Source of the DNA: Limnohabitans sp. MMS-10A-178
GTDB lineage: Bacteria > Pseudomonadota > Gammaproteobacteria > Burkholderiales > Burkholderiaceae_C
DNA length: 64,000 nucleotides
Reading direction: 5' to 3'
Assembly (NCBI RefSeq): GCF_003063375.1
Contig: NZ_NERY01000001.1
Location: 248,001 to 312,000, forward strand
Shown here in pieces: positions 4,723 to 29,443 of the stretch (positions are counted from its first letter, which is position 1; each line of letters begins with the position of its first letter). The translations under genes and the position numbers were made by a program. Below the pieces are notes generated by a model. It was not told the origin of the DNA. It made no database searches and saw only the letters and a program-made list of their open reading frames with translations.

Positions 4723-7458
4723 TTAGGGAAATACCGCCGCCCACAAGGCCAGAATGGCCTCTCTTTCAGCGTGCAAAGCGGCCTGGGAAACTTGCGTTGG
4801 CTCCTCATTCAACCGCGCCTTGTGTTGCACACGGCGCAACTCCCGGTAGGCCGATGCTGCCTTGAACCCCACGCCATGGGGCAACAAACCTGCTTTTTCT
4901 GCACTCTGAAGCAGAGCAATGTTGCCAACGTTGTGGGCCATTTCGGGGTGCTTGGCTGAGTGCATCAAAACCAAATACTGAACCGCAAACTCCGCATCGA
5001 CCATGCCACCAGGACTGTGTTTCACATCAAACAGTTCTGACTTGATCGCGTGGGCAGAGCGGACTCGGATGCGCATGGCCACAATTTCAGACTTCAATGC
5101 AGACTCATCGCGAGGGGCACTGATGACGGCGCGTTGAACCTCTTCAAACTGCTTGGCGATGTGCTCCTCGCCCATTACAAAGCGGGCCCGTGTCATGGCT
5201 TGGTGTTCCCAAGTCCAGGCTGTATTGCTGCCCCTTTGTTGTTGGTAATCGGCATACGCCGCGAAAGTGGTTACCAACAAACCTGAGCTTCCGTTGGGTC
5301 TCAGTGCGGTGTCAATTTCAAACAAGTCGCCTTCTGCAGTTTTGACCGTGAACCAATTGATGAGCTTTCTAACAAAGGCGCCATAGACCTCTTGAGCCCT
5401 TTCATCGGCGTCTTCGTAGACAAAGACAATGTCCAAATCACTGCCATACCCCAGCTCTTTGCCGCCCAATTTGCCATAGGCAATGATGCCAAATTGAGGC
5501 GCTTCACGGTGCCTGCTTTTCAGGCACGACCAACACCATTGCGCCGTGATGCGCAGCACTGCGTCGGCCATGGCGCTTAAATCGTCGGCCACCTGCTCAA
5601 CCGACAGGCGCCCTTCAACATCACGCGCCAAGGTTCGAAAAACCTCTGCGTGGTGAGCTCGGCGCAGCAAATTCAACAAGTTTTCCTCGTCATCTTCGCC
5701 TGTTCTTTTTAAGGCTGCTCGACGCGCTTGCAATTCAGCTTCAAAGTCTTGGGCCACAAACCTCTGTTGCAGCACATCGCCATTGGCCAGCTCATCAATC
5801 ACGCCGGGGTGTTGCACCAAATAACGCGCAGGCCATTTGGCGGCGCCCAAGAGTCGCAACAGGCGCTCGTGCACGGCAGGGCGCTCGAGCATCATGGCCA
5901 AGTAGCTTTCGCGGCGCATCAATGGCTCCATCCAGTCTGCCATTCGCACCACCGCATCCACTTCCACACGACCCTCTTTGAGCCACTGAGCCGTGCGCTG
6001 CAACAAGCGCATCAAACGAGCTCTGGCATCGTCTCTCAGGCCTTTGACTTTGGGGCTGTCTTGCCAATGTGCCAAGCGAGCTCGCGCCTCGCCTTTGAAC
6101 AAATCCAACACAGCCTCAAGTTCGGGGCGCTCACGGCCCGCTTGGGTTTGACAGGATTTACACTCCCGATCACCCCCCAGGAGAATGTCAAATTCATGCG
6201 CAACCACTTCACGGTGGGCGTCCAAATCTGACAGGAAGTCACAACCTTCGGTATACCCCATGGTGTTGGCTATCCATTGCAGATCTGCATCTTGTGTGGG
6301 TAAAACATGCGTTTGCTGATCATCCAAATACTGAATGCGATGCTCCACTTTTCGAAGGAAAACATACGCTTGTGTCAAAGCTTGCGCCGTTTCTAGGGGC
6401 ATCAGCCCCGCTTTGGCAATGCGTTGTAGCGCATCGACGGTGGGTCGGGTGCGAAGCTCTGGGAACTGCCCGCCTCGAACCACCTGCAAAAGTTGCACAG
6501 TGAATTCAATTTCCCGAATACCCCCGCGCGATAGCTTGACGTCATTGGCGCGCTCAGGATGACCTGCGCTCCTTTTGGCGGCATGATCGCGAATTTGTTG
6601 GTGCAAGGTTCTCAAAGACTCAAAGACGTTGTAATCGAGATAACGTCTAAATACAAACGGCAACACCACACTTCGAAGCTTGGCCGCAGAACCATTTTGA
6701 ACTGCGCTTCGGGGGGCAATCACTCTGCTCTTCATCCAAGCAAAACGCTCCCACTCGCGACCCTGAGCCATCAAATACTCTTCCAAGGCCCCCAAAGAGA
6801 CCACACTGGGGCCAGAGTTGCCATTGGGCCGCAGCGCCAAATCCATTCGAAATACAAAACCATGCTCGGTGGTATCGCCCACCAAGGTAAAGATGGCCTT
6901 GACGGCTCGGCTGAAATACTCATGGACGGAGATCTTGCCCAAGCCCTGAGCATTGCCTGCCGTCTCGCCGTCTTCATCGTAGACATAGATCAGGTCGATG
7001 TCGCTTGAAACATTGAGCTCTCGTGCACCCAGTTTGCCCATGCCCACCACCCAAAGCTGGGCTTTTTCGCCATTGGCGAGCAAAGGGGCACCATGCCTTG
7101 CGTCGAGGTCATGAAATGCCTGCTGGCAAGCCTCATCTAGCGCCAATTCCGCCAAATGGGTCACCGCCGTGGTAACGACGTCTAGAGGCGCGTCTTGCTC
7201 ACAGTCCATGGTGAGGAGGCGAGCCATGGTCCATTGGCGCAAGATTCTCATAGCGGGGCCAACCTCGTGGCCCTGCGCGCGCAGTTGTTGGTAGGCTTGC
7301 ATCAACAAACTTTGATGCGGCACCCCTGCTGGCAAGCTGGCAAAAGTATCTGCATAGCGTCTTTGAAGCCGCTGAAAAAATCGCGATCCTTCAGAGAGTG
7401 GTGCTGGGCGCTTTGAATCCATGACTTTGGCTGTCTCAAATGGGCTTGTGGCGGTCAT
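4723..7458 (-). CDS. glnE: Bifunctional glutamine synthetase adenylyltransferase/adenylyl-removase
   Basis: 911 residues, close to the usual length. Two nucleotidyltransferase domains are visible: an N-terminal one with GMGKLGARELNVSSDIDLIY (adenylyl-removing half) and a C-terminal one with YGKLGGKELGYGSDLDIVF (adenylylating half), each holding the G-S-D-x-D type metal ligands. Helical linkers carry LSRGGIREIEF and SPGGMVDAEF. GlnE attaches or removes AMP on glutamine synthetase in response to PII protein and glutamine, so it connects to glnK at 56254. Start ATG 7458 is used; a second in-frame ATG (7422) would leave more room for the divergent promoter. Divergent from the YhdP-like gene. Confidence 0.95.
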   Translation of the reverse strand: MTATSPFETAKVMDSKRPAPLSEGSRFFQRLQRRYADTFASLPAGVPHQSLLMQAYQQLRAQGHEVGPAMRILRQWTMARLLTMDCEQDAPLDVVTTAVTHLAELALDEACQQAFHDLDARHGAPLLANGEKAQLWVVGMGKLGARELNVSSDIDLIYVYDEDGETAGNAQGLGKISVHEYFSRAVKAIFTLVGDTTEHGFVFRMDLALRPNGNSGPSVVSLGALEEYLMAQGREWERFAWMKSRVIAPRSAVQNGSAAKLRSVVLPFVFRRYLDYNVFESLRTLHQQIRDHAAKRSAGHPERANDVKLSRGGIREIEFTVQLLQVVRGGQFPELRTRPTVDALQRIAKAGLMPLETAQALTQAYVFLRKVEHRIQYLDDQQTHVLPTQDADLQWIANTMGYTEGCDFLSDLDAHREVVAHEFDILLGGDRECKSCQTQAGRERPELEAVLDLFKGEARARLAHWQDSPKVKGLRDDARARLMRLLQRTAQWLKEGRVEVDAVVRMADWMEPLMRRESYLAMMLERPAVHERLLRLLGAAKWPARYLVQHPGVIDELANGDVLQQRFVAQDFEAELQARRAALKRTGEDDEENLLNLLRRAHHAEVFRTLARDVEGRLSVEQVADDLSAMADAVLRITAQWCWSCLKSRHREAPQFGIIAYGKLGGKELGYGSDLDIVFVYEDADERAQEVYGAFVRKLINWFTVKTAEGDLFEIDTALRPNGSSGLLVTTFAAYADYQQQRGSNTAWTWEHQAMTRARFVMGEEHIAKQFEEVQRAVISAPRDESALKSEIVAMRIRVRSAHAIKSELFDVKHSPGGMVDAEFAVQYLVLMHSAKHPEMAHNVGNIALLQSAEKAGLLPHGVGFKAASAYRELRRVQHKARLNEEPTQVSQAALHAEREAILALWAAVFP

Positions 7459-23597: not shown

Positions 23598-23750
23598 GGT
23601 GCCTCCTTGAGTTCTAGGCCGAGCTTAGCGCGAGGGTGCTCTGATACGGGTCGCGCATGGAACACGCGATGCAGATAAAATCGAGCCCTTTGGCCATTGG
23701 CCCTTACGGCGCGAGCAGCGCCGGCCTTCAGTTGATGCACTGGTGATTTG

Positions 23751-25796
23751 ATGCTTTACCCACAAGAATTTGATGTGATCGTCGTTGGCGGCGGCCACGC
23801 CGGCACCGAAGCCGCATTGGCGGCTGCGCGCATGGGTTGTCAGACACTTTTGCTGTCTCACAACATTGAAACCTTGGGCCAGATGAGCTGCAACCCCTCT
23901 ATTGGCGGTATTGGCAAAGGCCACCTTGTGAAAGAGGTGGATGCCTTGGGTGGTGCCATGGGCATTGCAACAGATGAGGGCGGCATTCAGTTTCGAATTT
24001 TGAACAGCTCCAAAGGGCCTGCAGTTCGCGCAACGCGCGCTCAAGCCGATCGTATTTTGTACAAGGCCGCCATTCGCAGCCGCCTTGAAAACCAAGAAAA
24101 CTTGTGGCTTTTCCAGCAAGCGGTGGACGACCTCATGGTGGAGTCCAATGGCACAGAAGACCGTGTGGTGGGGGCTGTCACGCAAGTGGGTGTTCGCTTT
24201 CGTGCCAAAACGGTGGTTCTAACGGCCGGTACTTTTTTGGATGGCAAAATTCACGTAGGCTTAGAAAACTACTCAGCCGGCAGGGCAGGTGACCCTCCGG
24301 CGGTCAGTTTGTCTGCCCGCCTGAAAGAGCTGAAGTTGCCCCAGGGCCGCTTAAAAACGGGTACGCCCCCGCGGTTAGACGGCCGTACCATTGACTTTTC
24401 GAAATGCCAAGAACAGCCGGGCGACGGTATGCCAGGTGGCTTGAATGCTGATGCGGGTGTGCCAGTTTTCAGCTTCATGGGCCGCGCAGACATGCACCCA
24501 GCGCAGATGCCTTGTTGGATCACGCATACCAACGAGAGAACCCACGAGATCATTCGCTCCGGCTTTGACCGAAGCCCCATGTTCATGGGGAAAATTGAAG
24601 GTGTTGGACCTCGCTATTGCCCTAGCGTGGAGGACAAGATCAATCGATTTGCTGACAAAGACAGCCATCAAATTTTCTTGGAGCCCGAGGGCTTGACCAC
24701 CCACGAGTTTTATCCCAATGGCATTTCCACCAGTTTGCCATTTGACATTCAGTACGCATTGGTGAGGTCTATGAAGGGGCTGGAAAATGCCCACATCCTT
24801 CGGCCTGGTTATGCCATTGAGTATGACTACTTCGATCCGCGCTCCCTGAAGAGCAGTTTTGAAACACGCCAAATTGGCGGATTGTTTTTTGCTGGGCAAA
24901 TTAACGGCACCACAGGTTATGAAGAGGCTGCAGCGCAAGGCTTGTTTGCTGGCATCAATGCCGCACTTCAGTGCCGAGCTATGTCTGGCTTGGGCAATGA
25001 TATGGGCGGGGCATGGTTGCCAAGCCGTGATCAGGCTTACTTGGGCGTGCTGGTAGATGACCTGATTACCAAGGGTGTTACTGAACCCTACCGAATGTTT
25101 ACCAGCAGGGCAGAGTTTCGCTTGCAACTTCGGGAAGACAACGCAGACATGCGCTTGACAGAAGTGGGTCGAAAGTTGGGCTTGGTGGACGAAGCGCGCT
25201 GGACGTCTTTTTGCACAAAACGCGAGGCTGTTTCACGTGAAACAGAGCGGCTGAAGTCAACTTGGGTGAACCCGAGAAACTTGCCGGCGGCAGAATCGGA
25301 GCGAGTTCTTGGCAAGTCCATTGAGCACGAGCACAACCTGTTCGATTTGTTGAGGCGGCCTGGTGTTGCTTACGAAAGCCTGATGACTTTGGACGCCGAT
25401 CGTTTTGTGGCAGAGGCTGTTTCACGTGAAACACTTGGCGATCTTTCGGCTGCAGTGATTGAGCAGGTTGAGATAGCGGCCAAGTACTCGGGCTACATAG
25501 ATCGGCAAAAGATAGAGGTTGAGCGCGCGGCGCACTTTGAAAATCTTAAGTTGCCCGCGAAATTAGACTATCTTCAGGTGACCTCTTTGTCGATAGAGGC
25601 AAGGCAAAAACTGGCCAAGCACAGACCCGAAACCTTGGGCATGGCATCGAGAATCTCGGGCATTACCCCCGCAACCATTTCTTTGTTGTTGATTTATCTC
25701 AAAAGAGGTGGGTTCAAGGAGTTCATGGCGGTTAAGCCTGAGTCGCTGGAGTTTGAGGGCGCAAACTCAGAGGGCGCCGTGAGTCTGAAGTCATGA
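23751..25796 (+). CDS. mnmG: tRNA uridine-5-carboxymethylaminomethyl modification enzyme MnmG (GidA)
   Basis: 681 residues from ATG 23751. FAD-binding [19 protein letters not shown] (about 10-28), then [28 protein letters not shown] and [21 protein letters not shown], all hallmarks of GidA. With MnmE it installs cmnm5U at the wobble position of certain tRNAs. It overlaps rsmG by four bases (ATGA) and leads the mnmG-rsmG-lysE-parA-hydrolase-parB block. Two 16-bp parS palindromes are embedded in its 3' third, where both encode the peptide AVSRET. A possible -10 (GATAAAAT near 23665) lies in the 150-base leader, which also has small GC hairpins. Confidence 0.97.
25229..25244. other. parS centromere site 1 (inside mnmG)
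   Basis: TGTTTCACGTGAAACA, a perfect 16-bp palindrome identical to the consensus ParB-binding parS sequence. It is read in frame as part of AVSRET in MnmG. parA and parB lie 2-3 kb downstream. Confidence 0.95.
25418..25433. other. parS centromere site 2 (inside mnmG)
   Basis: A second perfect TGTTTCACGTGAAACA, 189 bases after the first and in the same reading frame phase, again encoding AVSRET. Two identical sites this close in coding sequence are not expected by chance. Confidence 0.95.
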
Positions 25797-26500
25797 CTGT
25801 CGGACCATCGCACCTGCTTAATATTCCCTTGGACCTTGCGCGCGGTATAGATGCCTTGGGTTTGCGGGTAACCGAGGCGCAGCAGCATCAGCTGTTGAGC
25901 TACATGGATCTGATTCAAAAATGGAACAAGGTCTATAACCTCACTGCGCTAAGAGGCCTCCAAGAAATACTGACTCACCATGTGCTAGACAGTTTGTCTG
26001 TCATTACGCCCTTGCTTCGGCACATTGAGCAAAACAAGTTATCCGAACAGCCAACTGTGAGTTTGTTGGATGTCGGCTCGGGGGGTGGTTTGCCAGGGGT
26101 TGTGATTGCTATCTGTTGCCCCTTTGTTCGCGTCACATGCGTCGACACCGTTTCAAAGAAGGCCGCATTCATTCAGCAGGCGGCTGCCAGTCTAAGGCTG
26201 CCTAATTTGCAGGGTGTTCACGCTCGCGTAGAAGGTTTGTCTGGGCCCTTTGATCTTATTTGCTCTCGGGCCTTTGCCTCGTTGCCAGACTTTGTGAGTT
26301 GGTCTTTGGGTGCTTTGGCCCATGATGGGGTTTGGATGGCCATGAAGGGCAAAACCCCCGAAGATGAAATGGCGGCTTTGCCTTCCTCGGCAAAAGTGTT
26401 TCACGTGGAACAGCTGAAAGTTCCCGGCTTGGAGGCCGATCGTTGCGTGGTTTGGATGAAAAAATCAGCAAGTTTGTCAGCTGCGGCAAGCTCGACTTGA
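25793..26500 (+). CDS. rsmG: 16S rRNA (guanine-527-N7)-methyltransferase RsmG (GidB)
   Basis: 235 residues. SAM-binding [16 protein letters not shown] (about 83-98), preceded by [11 protein letters not shown] and HHVLDSLSV and followed by [10 protein letters not shown], all conserved in GidB. It methylates G527 of 16S rRNA; loss in other bacteria gives low-level streptomycin resistance. The start overlaps the mnmG stop by four bases. The C-terminal part holds a parS-like sequence with one mismatch (26397-26412), encoded as VFHVEQ. Confidence 0.95.
26397..26412. other. parS-like site with one mismatch (inside rsmG)
   Basis: TGTTTCACGTGGAACA differs from consensus parS only at position 12 (A to G). 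It lies about 970 bases from parS site 2. It may be a weaker third ParB site. Confidence 0.75.
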
Positions 26501-26540: not shown

Positions 26541-27155
26541 ATGTTTGGAATTTCTGATTACGGTGCTTTTGTTGCCGCCTTTGTGTTGCTTTTGTTCTTG
26601 CCAGGCCCTGGAAACTTGGCCCTCATTACCTCTACCTCTCAAGGCGGCATCAAGGGTGGCTTTGCCTCAGTCATGGGCTTGCTCTTGGGCGATCAAATTT
26701 TGTTGTGGATGACTGTTGCAGGGGTGGCGGCACTTCTACAAACCTATCCCCATTTTTTCATGGCTTTGCAGTGGGTCGGTGCTGCTTACCTTGCCTGGCT
26801 TGGCTCTAAAATGCTTTTTGCAAAACCTGGTGAAGGGCCTTCCATCCAAATCACGCCGGGCAAGTACTTTAAGGAAACGATGCTGATTACCTTGCTCAAT
26901 CCCAAGGCCGTCATGTTCTATTTTGCCTTTTTCCCACAATTCATAGACCTAGAGCGCCACCAGGGAATGATTACCTTTGTATTCATGGCTTTGACCATTG
27001 CTGTTTTGGGATTTGTGTATTGTTTTGGAATGGTGCTCATTACCCACCACATGGCGGAGCGCCTTCGAGCCAATCCCAAATTTTCTGGATTCCTTCAAAA
27101 AGTTGCCGGATTGTTTTTGATTGGTTTTGGTATCAAATTGGCCCTCGGTAAATGA
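26541..27155 (+). CDS. LysE/RhtB family amino-acid exporter
   Basis: 204 residues from ATG 26541 (an earlier in-frame TTG is ignored). The family signature FLPGPGNLALITSTSQGG (about residues 19-36) comes with GLLLGDQ, and LNPKAVMFYFAFFPQF (about 115-130) is the conserved second-half motif. About six membrane helices. It exports amino acids or homoserine/threonine-like compounds. It sits between rsmG and parA on the same strand (40 bases and 28 bases away), so it probably rides in the segregation operon without a functional link. Confidence 0.9.
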   Translation: MFGISDYGAFVAAFVLLLFLPGPGNLALITSTSQGGIKGGFASVMGLLLGDQILLWMTVAGVAALLQTYPHFFMALQWVGAAYLAWLGSKMLFAKPGEGPSIQITPGKYFKETMLITLLNPKAVMFYFAFFPQFIDLERHQGMITFVFMALTIAVLGFVYCFGMVLITHHMAERLRANPKFSGFLQKVAGLFLIGFGIKLALGK

Positions 27156-27183: not shown

Positions 27184-27954
27184 ATGGCAAAAATTTTCTG
27201 TGTTGCAAATCAAAAAGGCGGTGTTGGTAAAACCACGTCTGCGGTGAACTTGGCTGCTGGTTTGGCCAAGGTGGGACAGCGTGTCTTGCTGGTTGACCTC
27301 GACCCTCAGGGCAACGCCACCATGGGCTCGGGTGTGGACAAGCGCCAGTTAGAACTCAGCGTTTATGACGTTTTGCTTGAGTCAGCCAGCATTCAAGAGG
27401 CGTCTATTTTTTCAGAGAAGTGTGGCTATCACGTCTTGGGCGCCAACCGCGAGTTGGCGGGCGCCGAGGTTGAATTGGTTGATCTTGAAAGACGCGATCA
27501 ACGCTTGAAGGCGGCATTGGAAGTAGTCGACAAAGATTTTGATTTTGTCTTGATTGATTGCCCGCCGTCTTTGTCCATGCTCACCTTGAATGGTTTGTGT
27601 GCGGCGCATGGTGTGATCGTGCCAATGCAGTGCGAATATTTTGCCCTTGAAGGTCTGACAGATTTGGTCAATACCATCAAGCAAGTTCATGCCAACTTGA
27701 ACCCCGATTTGAAGATCATTGGTTTGCTTCGAGTGATGTTTGATCCGCGAATTACCTTGCAACAGCAAGTGAGTGAGCAGTTGAAATCACACTTTGGCGA
27801 CAAGGTATTCAACACCGTAATTCCCCGAAATGTGCGTTTGGCCGAAGCCCCAAGCTATGGTTTGCCAGGCGTGGTGTTTGATCCTTCAGCCAAGGGCAGT
27901 CAGGCATTTGTGGAGTTTGCCAAAGAGTTGGTACAACGCATCCCAACACTCTGA
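27184..27954 (+). CDS. parA: Chromosome-partitioning ATPase ParA (Soj)
   Basis: 256 residues. Deviant Walker A KGGVGKTT at 11-18 with the signature Lys11, Walker A-prime DLDPQGNATMG (about 39-49), Walker B VLIDCPPSLSMLTLN (about 120-134). Short N-terminus without a DNA-binding extension, so the chromosomal (Soj/type Ib) kind and not the plasmid type Ia kind. It works with ParB and parS to move the origin region. Only a small hydrolase gene lies between it and parB. Confidence 0.97.
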   Translation: MAKIFCVANQKGGVGKTTSAVNLAAGLAKVGQRVLLVDLDPQGNATMGSGVDKRQLELSVYDVLLESASIQEASIFSEKCGYHVLGANRELAGAEVELVDLERRDQRLKAALEVVDKDFDFVLIDCPPSLSMLTLNGLCAAHGVIVPMQCEYFALEGLTDLVNTIKQVHANLNPDLKIIGLLRVMFDPRITLQQQVSEQLKSHFGDKVFNTVIPRNVRLAEAPSYGLPGVVFDPSAKGSQAFVEFAKELVQRIPTL

Positions 27955-27972
27955 GATCGTTGCTGAGTCATC

Positions 27973-28527
27973 ATGGCAAACCAAAAAGTACTTATATTGC
28001 CTGGTTGGCGAGGAAGCGGGCACTCACATTGGCAAATGCGCTGGGTCAATCAATATGCTTACCAAGTCGTAGATCAGCATGAGTGGATGCGCCCCCTTCG
28101 AGGTGATTGGCTAGCTCGATTGGAAGAGGTGATGTCTGATGTGAGTGAGTCGGTTTATTTGGTAGCACATGGTTTGGGCTGCATTCAAATTGCAGCCTGG
28201 GCTCAAATCTCTGCTCACAGTCACAAGGTGCATGGTGCCTTGTTGGTGGCTCCAAGCGATGTTGAAGCCTCGCACTTTCAAGATGTGCTTTCGAGTTGGC
28301 GACCCATTGAGCTGAAGGCCTTGCCATTCAAGTCCATTTTGATTGGCAGCCAAAACGACCTTGATTGCCGTGCAGAACGCGCAGCACATTTTGCAATGTT
28401 ATGGGGTGCGCAATATTTGAGTCTGGGTGAGTGTGGGCATCTGAATGCCGAATCCAATTTGGGCGATTGGCCAGAGGGCCACGCTTTGTTGAGTGAATTG
28501 ATGAAAGAAAAAGAACATGGTCACTAA
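27973..28527 (+). CDS. RBBP9/YdeN-like serine hydrolase
   Basis: 184 residues with the RBBP9/YdeN pattern: LPGWRGSGHSHWQ near the start, a nucleophile elbow at about residue 64 (VAHGLGC, where the usual Ser is replaced in the G-x-S-x-G position by Gly-Leu-Gly), an Asp near 130, and a C-terminal His in GECGHLNAES. The catalytic serine is not in the canonical place: the family shows VGHSLG and here it reads VAHGLG, so activity is doubtful. It overlaps parB by 11 bases and sits between parA and parB, an arrangement worth comparing with relatives. Confidence 0.75.
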   Translation: MANQKVLILPGWRGSGHSHWQMRWVNQYAYQVVDQHEWMRPLRGDWLARLEEVMSDVSESVYLVAHGLGCIQIAAWAQISAHSHKVHGALLVAPSDVEASHFQDVLSSWRPIELKALPFKSILIGSQNDLDCRAERAAHFAMLWGAQYLSLGECGHLNAESNLGDWPEGHALLSELMKEKEHGH

Positions 28528-29443
28528 AAAACCGAAAGGCTTAGGCCGCGGACTTGAGGCCTTACTTGGCCCCAAAGTGCAAAACGAAGCCAGCTCACCG
28601 CAAGCGGTTGAAGCCGCCGCCAATCGAAGCCCCAGTACCTTGGCGCTTAGCGAGTTGGTGCCCGGCATGTACCAACCGCGAACCCGCATGGACGAGGGTG
28701 CACTTTACGAATTGGCCGAGTCCATCAAAGCGCAAGGCATCATGCAGCCTATCTTGGTTCGCAAGCTAAGCGATGGCCCCAATGCTGGCAAATACGAAAT
28801 CATTGCGGGTGAGCGCCGTTTCCGCGCATCTCGCTTGGCGGGCTTGAACGAGGTGCCCGTGTTGGTTCGAGATGTGGCCAATGAAGCCGCGGCGGCCATG
28901 GCCTTGATTGAGAACATTCAACGCGAAGACCTCAACCCTTTAGAAGAGGCTCTTGGCCTGCAACGCCTAATTAAAGAGTTTGGACTCACTCACGAAACAG
29001 CCGCGCAAGCGGTTGGACGCTCTAGAAGTGCTGCCAGCAATTTGCTGCGTTTGTTAAATTTGGCCGAACCCGTGCAAACCATGTTGATGGCAGGCGACAT
29101 TGACATGGGCCACGCCCGCGCCTTGCTGGGTTTAGACAAGGCGGCTCAAATTACGGCCGCCAACCAAATTAGCGCTAAAAAAATGTCGGTGCGCGAAGCA
29201 GAAAGCTTGGTGAAAAAACTCAGCGCAGAGTTTTCTTTGGTTCAGCAAAAACCGAAAAAAGAAAAGTCGCGAGACATCAAACGCGTGGAAGAAGAGTTGT
29301 CAGATTTGTTGATGGCACAAGTGGAGGTGCGCGTTAAAAAACGCGTGAAGCGACACGGACGCTTTGAGGAAATGGGTGAGTTGTCGATTCAGTTTGGTTC
29401 TTTGGACGAACTCAATGGGCTGATTGAAAAACTTCGCGCATGA
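28517..29443 (+). CDS. parB: Chromosome-partitioning protein ParB (Spo0J)
   Basis: 308 residues. N-terminal KPKGLGRGLEALLG is the usual ParA-interaction start; the CTP-binding/clamp motif GERRFRA is at about 98-104, then the helix-turn-helix GLTHETAAQAVGRSRSAASNLLRLL (split here: GLTHETAAQAVGRSRS and AASNLLRLL) and a C-terminal dimerisation domain. It loads on parS and slides as a CTP clamp. It starts inside the end of the hydrolase gene. Its likely targets are the parS sites in mnmG 3 kb upstream. Confidence 0.97.
   Translation: MVTKKPKGLGRGLEALLGPKVQNEASSPQAVEAAANRSPSTLALSELVPGMYQPRTRMDEGALYELAESIKAQGIMQPILVRKLSDGPNAGKYEIIAGERRFRASRLAGLNEVPVLVRDVANEAAAAMALIENIQREDLNPLEEALGLQRLIKEFGLTHETAAQAVGRSRSAASNLLRLLNLAEPVQTMLMAGDIDMGHARALLGLDKAAQITAANQISAKKMSVREAESLVKKLSAEFSLVQQKPKKEKSRDIKRVEEELSDLLMAQVEVRVKKRVKRHGRFEEMGELSIQFGSLDELNGLIEKLRA

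Follow-up and report, generated by a model that had tools for sequence, protein, structure and literature searches.

A predicted chromosomal parS centromere inside mnmG and rsmG of a Limnohabitans-like bacterium

Introduction

Why would three near-identical palindromes sit inside the coding sequences of mnmG and rsmG, a short way upstream of parA and parB? The DNA analyzed here (the window, a stretch of 64,000 nt from a freshwater, Limnohabitans-like bacterium, a genus that NCBI taxonomy places in the Comamonadaceae) carries the 16-mer TGTTTCACGTGAAACA twice exactly, at 25229-25244 (site A) and 25418-25433 (site B), both in mnmG and spaced by 189 bp. It carries a copy with one mismatch, TGTTTCACGTGGAACA, at 26397-26412 (site C), in rsmG near the end of the gene. 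All three are placed on the plus strand. A sequence-only reading of the window had reported these copies as parS sites, and a pattern search found them as described. The palindromes are, with a probability of about 0.93, the chromosomal parS centromere of this bacterium, lying within genes, and they are predicted to bind ParB, to let it spread and to serve in segregation.

The sites and the genes around them

The gene mnmG (gidA; 23751..25796, plus strand) scores 865.8 bits against TIGR00136 (cut-off 524.85), and its open frame has a TTG at 23748 and an ATG at 23751. Sites A and B both translate as A-V-S-R-E-T in MnmG, as the sequence-only reading had said; counted from the TTG at 23748, the valine is V495 in site A and V558 in site B. 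Site C is hosted by rsmG (gidB; 25793..26500, plus strand; TIGR00138, 154.2 bits, cut-off 99.5), translates as V-F-H-V-E-Q and is a conserved variant with G at position 12. In the same direction follow a LysE/LeuE-type exporter gene between rsmG and parA (26541..27155, plus strand; NF008201, 155.5 bits, below the cut-off of 165), parA for a ParA/Soj-type ATPase (27184..27954, plus strand; ParA-family NCBIfam matches, the best being NF041546 with 109.1 bits, below its cut-off of 180), an open reading frame without an NCBIfam match (27973..28527, plus strand) and parB of the ParB/Spo0J family (28517..29443, plus strand; TIGR00180, 189.5 bits, cut-off 58.45).

A chromosomal-type parA and parB are therefore close by, ParB over its family cut-off and ParA by superfamily matches only. 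Among NCBIfam models, Noc gives ParB its top score (220.3 bits, short of the 315 that this model requires), and the best solved relatives of ParB are the ParB/Spo0J chains 7bnk, 1vz0, 4umk and 6t1f. The sites had been placed 1-3 kb upstream of both genes; upstream they are, but the distances come to 0.8-2.0 kb for parA and 2.1-3.3 kb for parB. The gap between parA and parB, 27955-28516 in the window, is longer than 300 bp in 70/80 family genomes with both genes fetched, compared to 1/24 in the order panel.

The sites are the sole strong cluster in the genome. When the 2,885,081 bp of its 5 contigs were searched for the 16-mer, a check proposed by the sequence-only reading, these three stood alone at one mismatch or fewer, and 3 further matches had two mismatches. 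A genome-wide control with the backward pattern, which compares match counts and not clusters, gave 3 matches at up to two mismatches, 1 of these at up to one. The window itself holds one additional match with two mismatches, at 5018; it was considered as a fourth parS and dropped, since two-mismatch matches are at the background level of this control. In shuffled windows, 0.41 matches are expected at up to three mismatches, and four or more occurred in 0/100 shuffles. The gene dnaA (C1:183911-185251) is on the same contig, about 88 kb from the sites, so that the cluster is near the replication origin insofar as dnaA, the only marker of the origin used in this assembly of 5 contigs, stands in for it. 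In sequence, each of the three sites agrees with the 16-bp palindrome of parS or with one of its known variants at positions 5 and 12. In 16 hand-picked genomes, of which 15 are single-contig, the GTTYCACGTGRAAC matches are all confined to a single stretch no longer than 8.6 kb, at a distance of about 15-288 kb from dnaA, and every genome has at least one of them inside its mnmG match.

Genomes compared

Relatives were compared in an alignment of 275 mnmG genes: that of the window, 33 from the same genus, 138 from the family, 23 from the order (one per other family) and 80 named loci. The named loci, taken as the best 80 of at least 592, lean towards near relatives; the nearest mnmG among them belongs to a Limnohabitans MAG (93% identity). 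Apart from the window's own genome and one more of the genus, the family panel drew on 148 genomes, from which 1 without a match and 9 that were weak, broken or late-listed were left out. Rows that were too short were dropped for 2/35 same-genus and 1/24 order genomes, and 23/274 rsmG matches were dropped for a stop or their length by a crude frame rule. Outside the order, 73 class genomes other than the window's own had a match; omitting 4 broken ones left a class panel of 69. The 20 class genomes discussed below and the 16 genomes used for origin distances were picked by hand and are mostly complete or near-complete assemblies.

Constraint on the codons of sites A and B

Matches to the 14-bp core inside mnmG, at one mismatch or fewer, all fall on just two alignment columns in the 275 genes (which include the best 80 of at least 592 named loci): 205 genes have one at the column of site A and 157 at that of site B. 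They share one reading frame, in which the exact core reads VSRET. The exact core is present in the family panel at site A in 112/138 genes and at site B in 89/138, and it is absent from both places in 23/23 mnmG genes of the order panel.

The spelling of this peptide is nearly invariant. Among family genes with VSRET at site A, 112/113 read GTT TCA CGT GAA, where the codon use of the individual genes predicts 0.06; for site B, the parS spelling is found in 89/90, against 0.04 predicted. Third-position G+C in this panel ranges from 57 to 95% across genes. The same spelling appears in 32/33 (A) and 33/33 (B) same-genus genomes, and in 57/57 and 23/23 of the named loci (the best 80 of at least 592). 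At both sites, every other conserved column of V, S or R has a higher synonymous entropy than the site's own column for that residue; for E, this holds for all other columns compared to site A and for all but one compared to site B. These rows are mutually related, and counting the minimum codon changes on a tree (FastTree, site columns excluded) lessens the effect of kinship without removing it. On this tree, V, S, R and E changed 1, 1, 2 and 0 times at site A, compared to medians of 45.5, 54, 63 and 46 at other codons for the same residues, and 1, 0, 0 and 0 times at site B, compared to 31, 42.5, 44 and 34. The codon for T reaches beyond the 14-bp core with its third base and changes freely (33 times at A, 54 at B). 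Three genes keep VSRET with other codons: at site A, L261 (3 core mismatches) and L011 (1), and at site B, L038 (1).

The mutual constraint of protein and centromere that the sequence-only reading had proposed is thus seen at the DNA level across the family, and the free synonymous variation in mnmG that would have spoken against it did not occur. The residues respond as well. At site B, the amino-acid changes compatible with parS are VSRGT (5 genes) and VPRET (4), and a synonymous change keeping VSRET is found once; at site A, genes without parS have a drifting peptide (VARET, IERET, LAREQ and others). Since VSRET is missing at site A in 25/138 family genes, and an intragenic site is missing in 4/138 family genomes, all 4 of which have one upstream of mnmG, no single site is indispensable.

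What did the sites replace in the protein? Site A brought no insertion, with 22 residues between its anchors in 275/275 mnmG genes (including the best 80 of at least 592 named loci). Where it lies, the gidA chains with solved structures, 3cp2 and 3ces (E. coli), read IERER, and many relatives read IEREx or VAREx. A structure model of MnmG built from 36 sequences (mean pLDDT 79) puts site A within a helix, 481-503, with a pLDDT of 94 for residues 491-500. As modeled, site A is an entry into a long helix by substitution, without insertion. The linker at site B has 38 residues in the genus, a median of 43 in family genes with the site and a median of 28 in the order panel. Family genes without site B also have a long linker (median 40 vs 43), so length does not track the site, and an arrival of site B together with an insertion was dropped as an explanation.

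The variant site in rsmG

Site C had been called a near-site with one mismatch. The mismatch is there, but the label undersells it, as GTTYCACGTGGAAC is the family-wide variant. The family panel has GTTTCACGTGGAAC in 104/116 genes with FHVE and the symmetrical variant GTTCCACGTGGAAC in the other 12/116, while FHVE is missing in 9/125 scored family rsmG genes. The residue after FHV is E in 179/179 rsmG rows. Over 177 rows, no codon change was counted at H, V or E, and F has 14, all within a tolerated TTT/TTC switch, compared to a median of 50 over 87 other columns. Judged from these alignments, the single mismatch is a fixed feature and not decay. That an ancestral glutamate forced the mismatch was only partly borne out: E is found at that place in 22/72 rows without FHV (4/22 in the order panel), and K in none. 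In five genomes of the same genus (L017, L019, L022, L027 and L028), an extra exact site lies about 90-180 bp downstream of site C.

Natural variation and ParB specificity

The sites can also be set beside what is known of ParB binding. When all sites with up to two core mismatches are pooled (206 at A, 158 at B, 179 at C), positions 1 and 16 are highly variable. Changes at position 5 occur in 2 (A), 4 (B) and 15 (C) genes, the 2 at A being T-to-G transversions in VARET genes, and changes at position 12 in 0, 5 and 179. Core changes outside 5 and 12 amount to seven in all (3 at A, 4 at B, 0 at C). In the available text on B. cenocepacia, symmetric changes in parSc1 abolish ParBc1 binding in vitro except at 1-16 and for the transition at 5-12, and some single-arm changes elsewhere, such as T3C, were still bound well (PMC5450999). 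Natural variation as read from the alignments is thus mostly at 1/16 and 5/12, the positions that ParBc1, a protein from another genus, tolerates.

Distribution and possible origin of the arrangement

In the order panel, 20/23 genomes carry a site in the 500 bp upstream of mnmG; sites inside mnmG or rsmG were found in none. Among the named loci (the best 80 of at least 592), 13/13 Oxalobacteraceae have upstream sites only, 19/20 Comamonadaceae have intragenic sites without an upstream one, and, unlike the A+B+C pattern of the window, 19/23 Burkholderiaceae have site A plus an intergenic upstream site, without B or C. In the family panel, 30/138 have an upstream site as well and 4/138 the upstream kind only. 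Two oddities were seen among the named loci. A MAG labelled Methylobacillus (L104, among the best 80 of at least 592) has the Comamonadaceae pattern A+B+C and is possibly a mislabelled bin, and a Pandoraea horticolens locus (L106:6984-7911) carries a set of six parS-like sites ahead of mnmG that resembles a tandem parS array, with spacings of about 232 bp among the first four.

Outside the order, the stretches fetched around mnmG have sites in 0/69 class genomes, with nothing nearer than 2 mismatches, and the idea of mnmG-associated sites as a general feature of the class was rejected on these stretches. The 20 picked Gammaproteobacteria outside Burkholderiales all have sites elsewhere. Two lie in recF in 15 of the 20 and one in 2, recF being outside the fetched stretch in 3 (the gene was identified by NCBIfam in 3 of the genomes and by tblastn to one of these in the rest). 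Each recF site reads FHVE or FHVK. The paired ones (L356-L373) are 612-651 bp apart, the first mostly reading DWGxFHVE and the second FHVE or FHVK near the gene end.

On the unrooted tree, the fewest state changes are 20 for site A, 37 for B, 8 for C, 17 for the upstream site and 2 for "any intragenic site". These sequence-based counts fit a move from intergenic to coding DNA with redundancy among sites; the direction is our inference, for which unrooted counts are no proof. Compensation between the loss of intragenic sites and an upstream site looked suggestive in the tables (4/138), and too few independent pairs bear on it: 1 supported pair for loss and 6 for few intragenic sites, without significance. 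A tentative picture, to which we would give somewhat less than even odds, is that the centromere shifted stepwise into coding sequence from its intergenic place before mnmG, passing a stage that had both kinds of site (Burkholderia, Ralstonia, Cupriavidus), that this was favored because genic ParB loading spares promoters, that Gammaproteobacteria separately took to recF, and that bacterial centromeres may repeatedly dictate stretches of unrelated housekeeping proteins.

Other explanations

Could the palindromes be something other than a centromere? If AVSRET and FHVEQ were merely conserved peptides, the palindromes would be a by-product of codon choice. Both peptides do belong to conserved proteins, and part of the relatives without parS share the R-E of site A and the E of site C. 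However, ordinary protein conservation does not freeze the codons of V, S, R and E while the T codon varies at its third base, on the border of the 14-bp core, nor does it let the site A peptide drift without parS and site B take residue changes that keep parS; with free spelling of VSRET in only 1/113 (A) and 1/90 (B) family genes, this explanation can be given almost no weight. It is also very unlikely that the palindromes serve some other DNA-binding factor, be it a regulator or a CACGTG-recognizing restriction system. That core is common to regulators and restriction systems, but here all 14 bp are conserved, and the genome's only cluster adjoins parAB, near dnaA. The conserved bases match canonical parS and its reported tolerance (PMC5450999).

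An improbable though less remote idea is that ParB loading in mnmG-rsmG regulates these genes, coupling RNA modification to segregation on purpose. In P. aeruginosa, native ParB represses genes adjoining the intergenic parS3/4, and ParB in excess lowers all genes adjoining parS1-4, the intragenic ones included; the native protein, in the portion of the report available, has no effect beside the intragenic parS1/2 (PMC5521831). That pattern suggests a possible reason for favoring an intragenic place. The hosts, moreover, vary by clade (upstream of mnmG, mnmG, rsmG, recF). Since sites are upstream of mnmG in 20/23 other families of the order and in recF in 15/20 other, picked Gammaproteobacteria, the functional link between tRNA/rRNA modification and segregation that the sequence-only reading had drawn is not supported; the link is the position of the genes near parAB and the origin, not their function.

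Relation to known systems

The centromere reading has precedents, as parS inside genes is already known from Pseudomonas, Bacillus and Caulobacter (PMC4368675, PMC5521831, PMC5815017, PMC4442127). As far as the available portions of these reports go, parS1 and parS2 of P. aeruginosa are within recF, an origin-proximal gene, and 9/10 parS of PAO1 are predicted in coding sequences (PMC4368675, PMC5521831, PMC3909081). The window resembles this case in having parS in origin-proximal coding sequence and differs in that its hosts are mnmG and rsmG, none of its sites being in recF, and that two of its sites are canonical, whereas the Pseudomonas motif is TGTTCCACGTGGAACA (PMC5450999). The same 16-bp canonical motif is that of parSc1/ParBc1 on chromosome 1 of B. 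cenocepacia (PMC5450999); the literature checked on that system makes no mention of gidA in its main text. In Caulobacter crescentus, sites also cluster in genes near the origin, genes essential or costly enough to keep the authors from ablation, and in the text available, only the half-site GTGAAA is described as conserved among them (PMC5815017). Bacillus subtilis has an intragenic site too, parS-359, whose host is parB itself (PMC4442127). No description of parS in mnmG or rsmG was found in the literature searched, mainly non-subscription, and an earlier mention is possible.

What would the centromere do?

Homology and the published systems point to the following course of events. ParB, encoded 2-3 kb downstream, would bind the three sites and close into a CTP-dependent clamp; the clamp would spread across the mnmG-rsmG-parA region, and ParA would move the ParB-parS complex, so that the origin region is segregated. 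Since the sites lie within reading frames, selection on the DNA would fix codons and in part residues of both proteins, VSRET twice in MnmG and FHVE in RsmG.

One stretch of DNA that would act as both centromere and code is a clean natural experiment, with about 200 genomes amounting to a mutational scan of parS that agrees largely with the in vitro map of ParB specificity. It would also explain odd conserved peptides in MnmG and RsmG that would be mistaken for functional motifs if the proteins alone were analyzed. In these bacteria, mutants with mnmG or rsmG deleted or recoded may be impaired in segregation, and their division phenotypes could be effects in cis.
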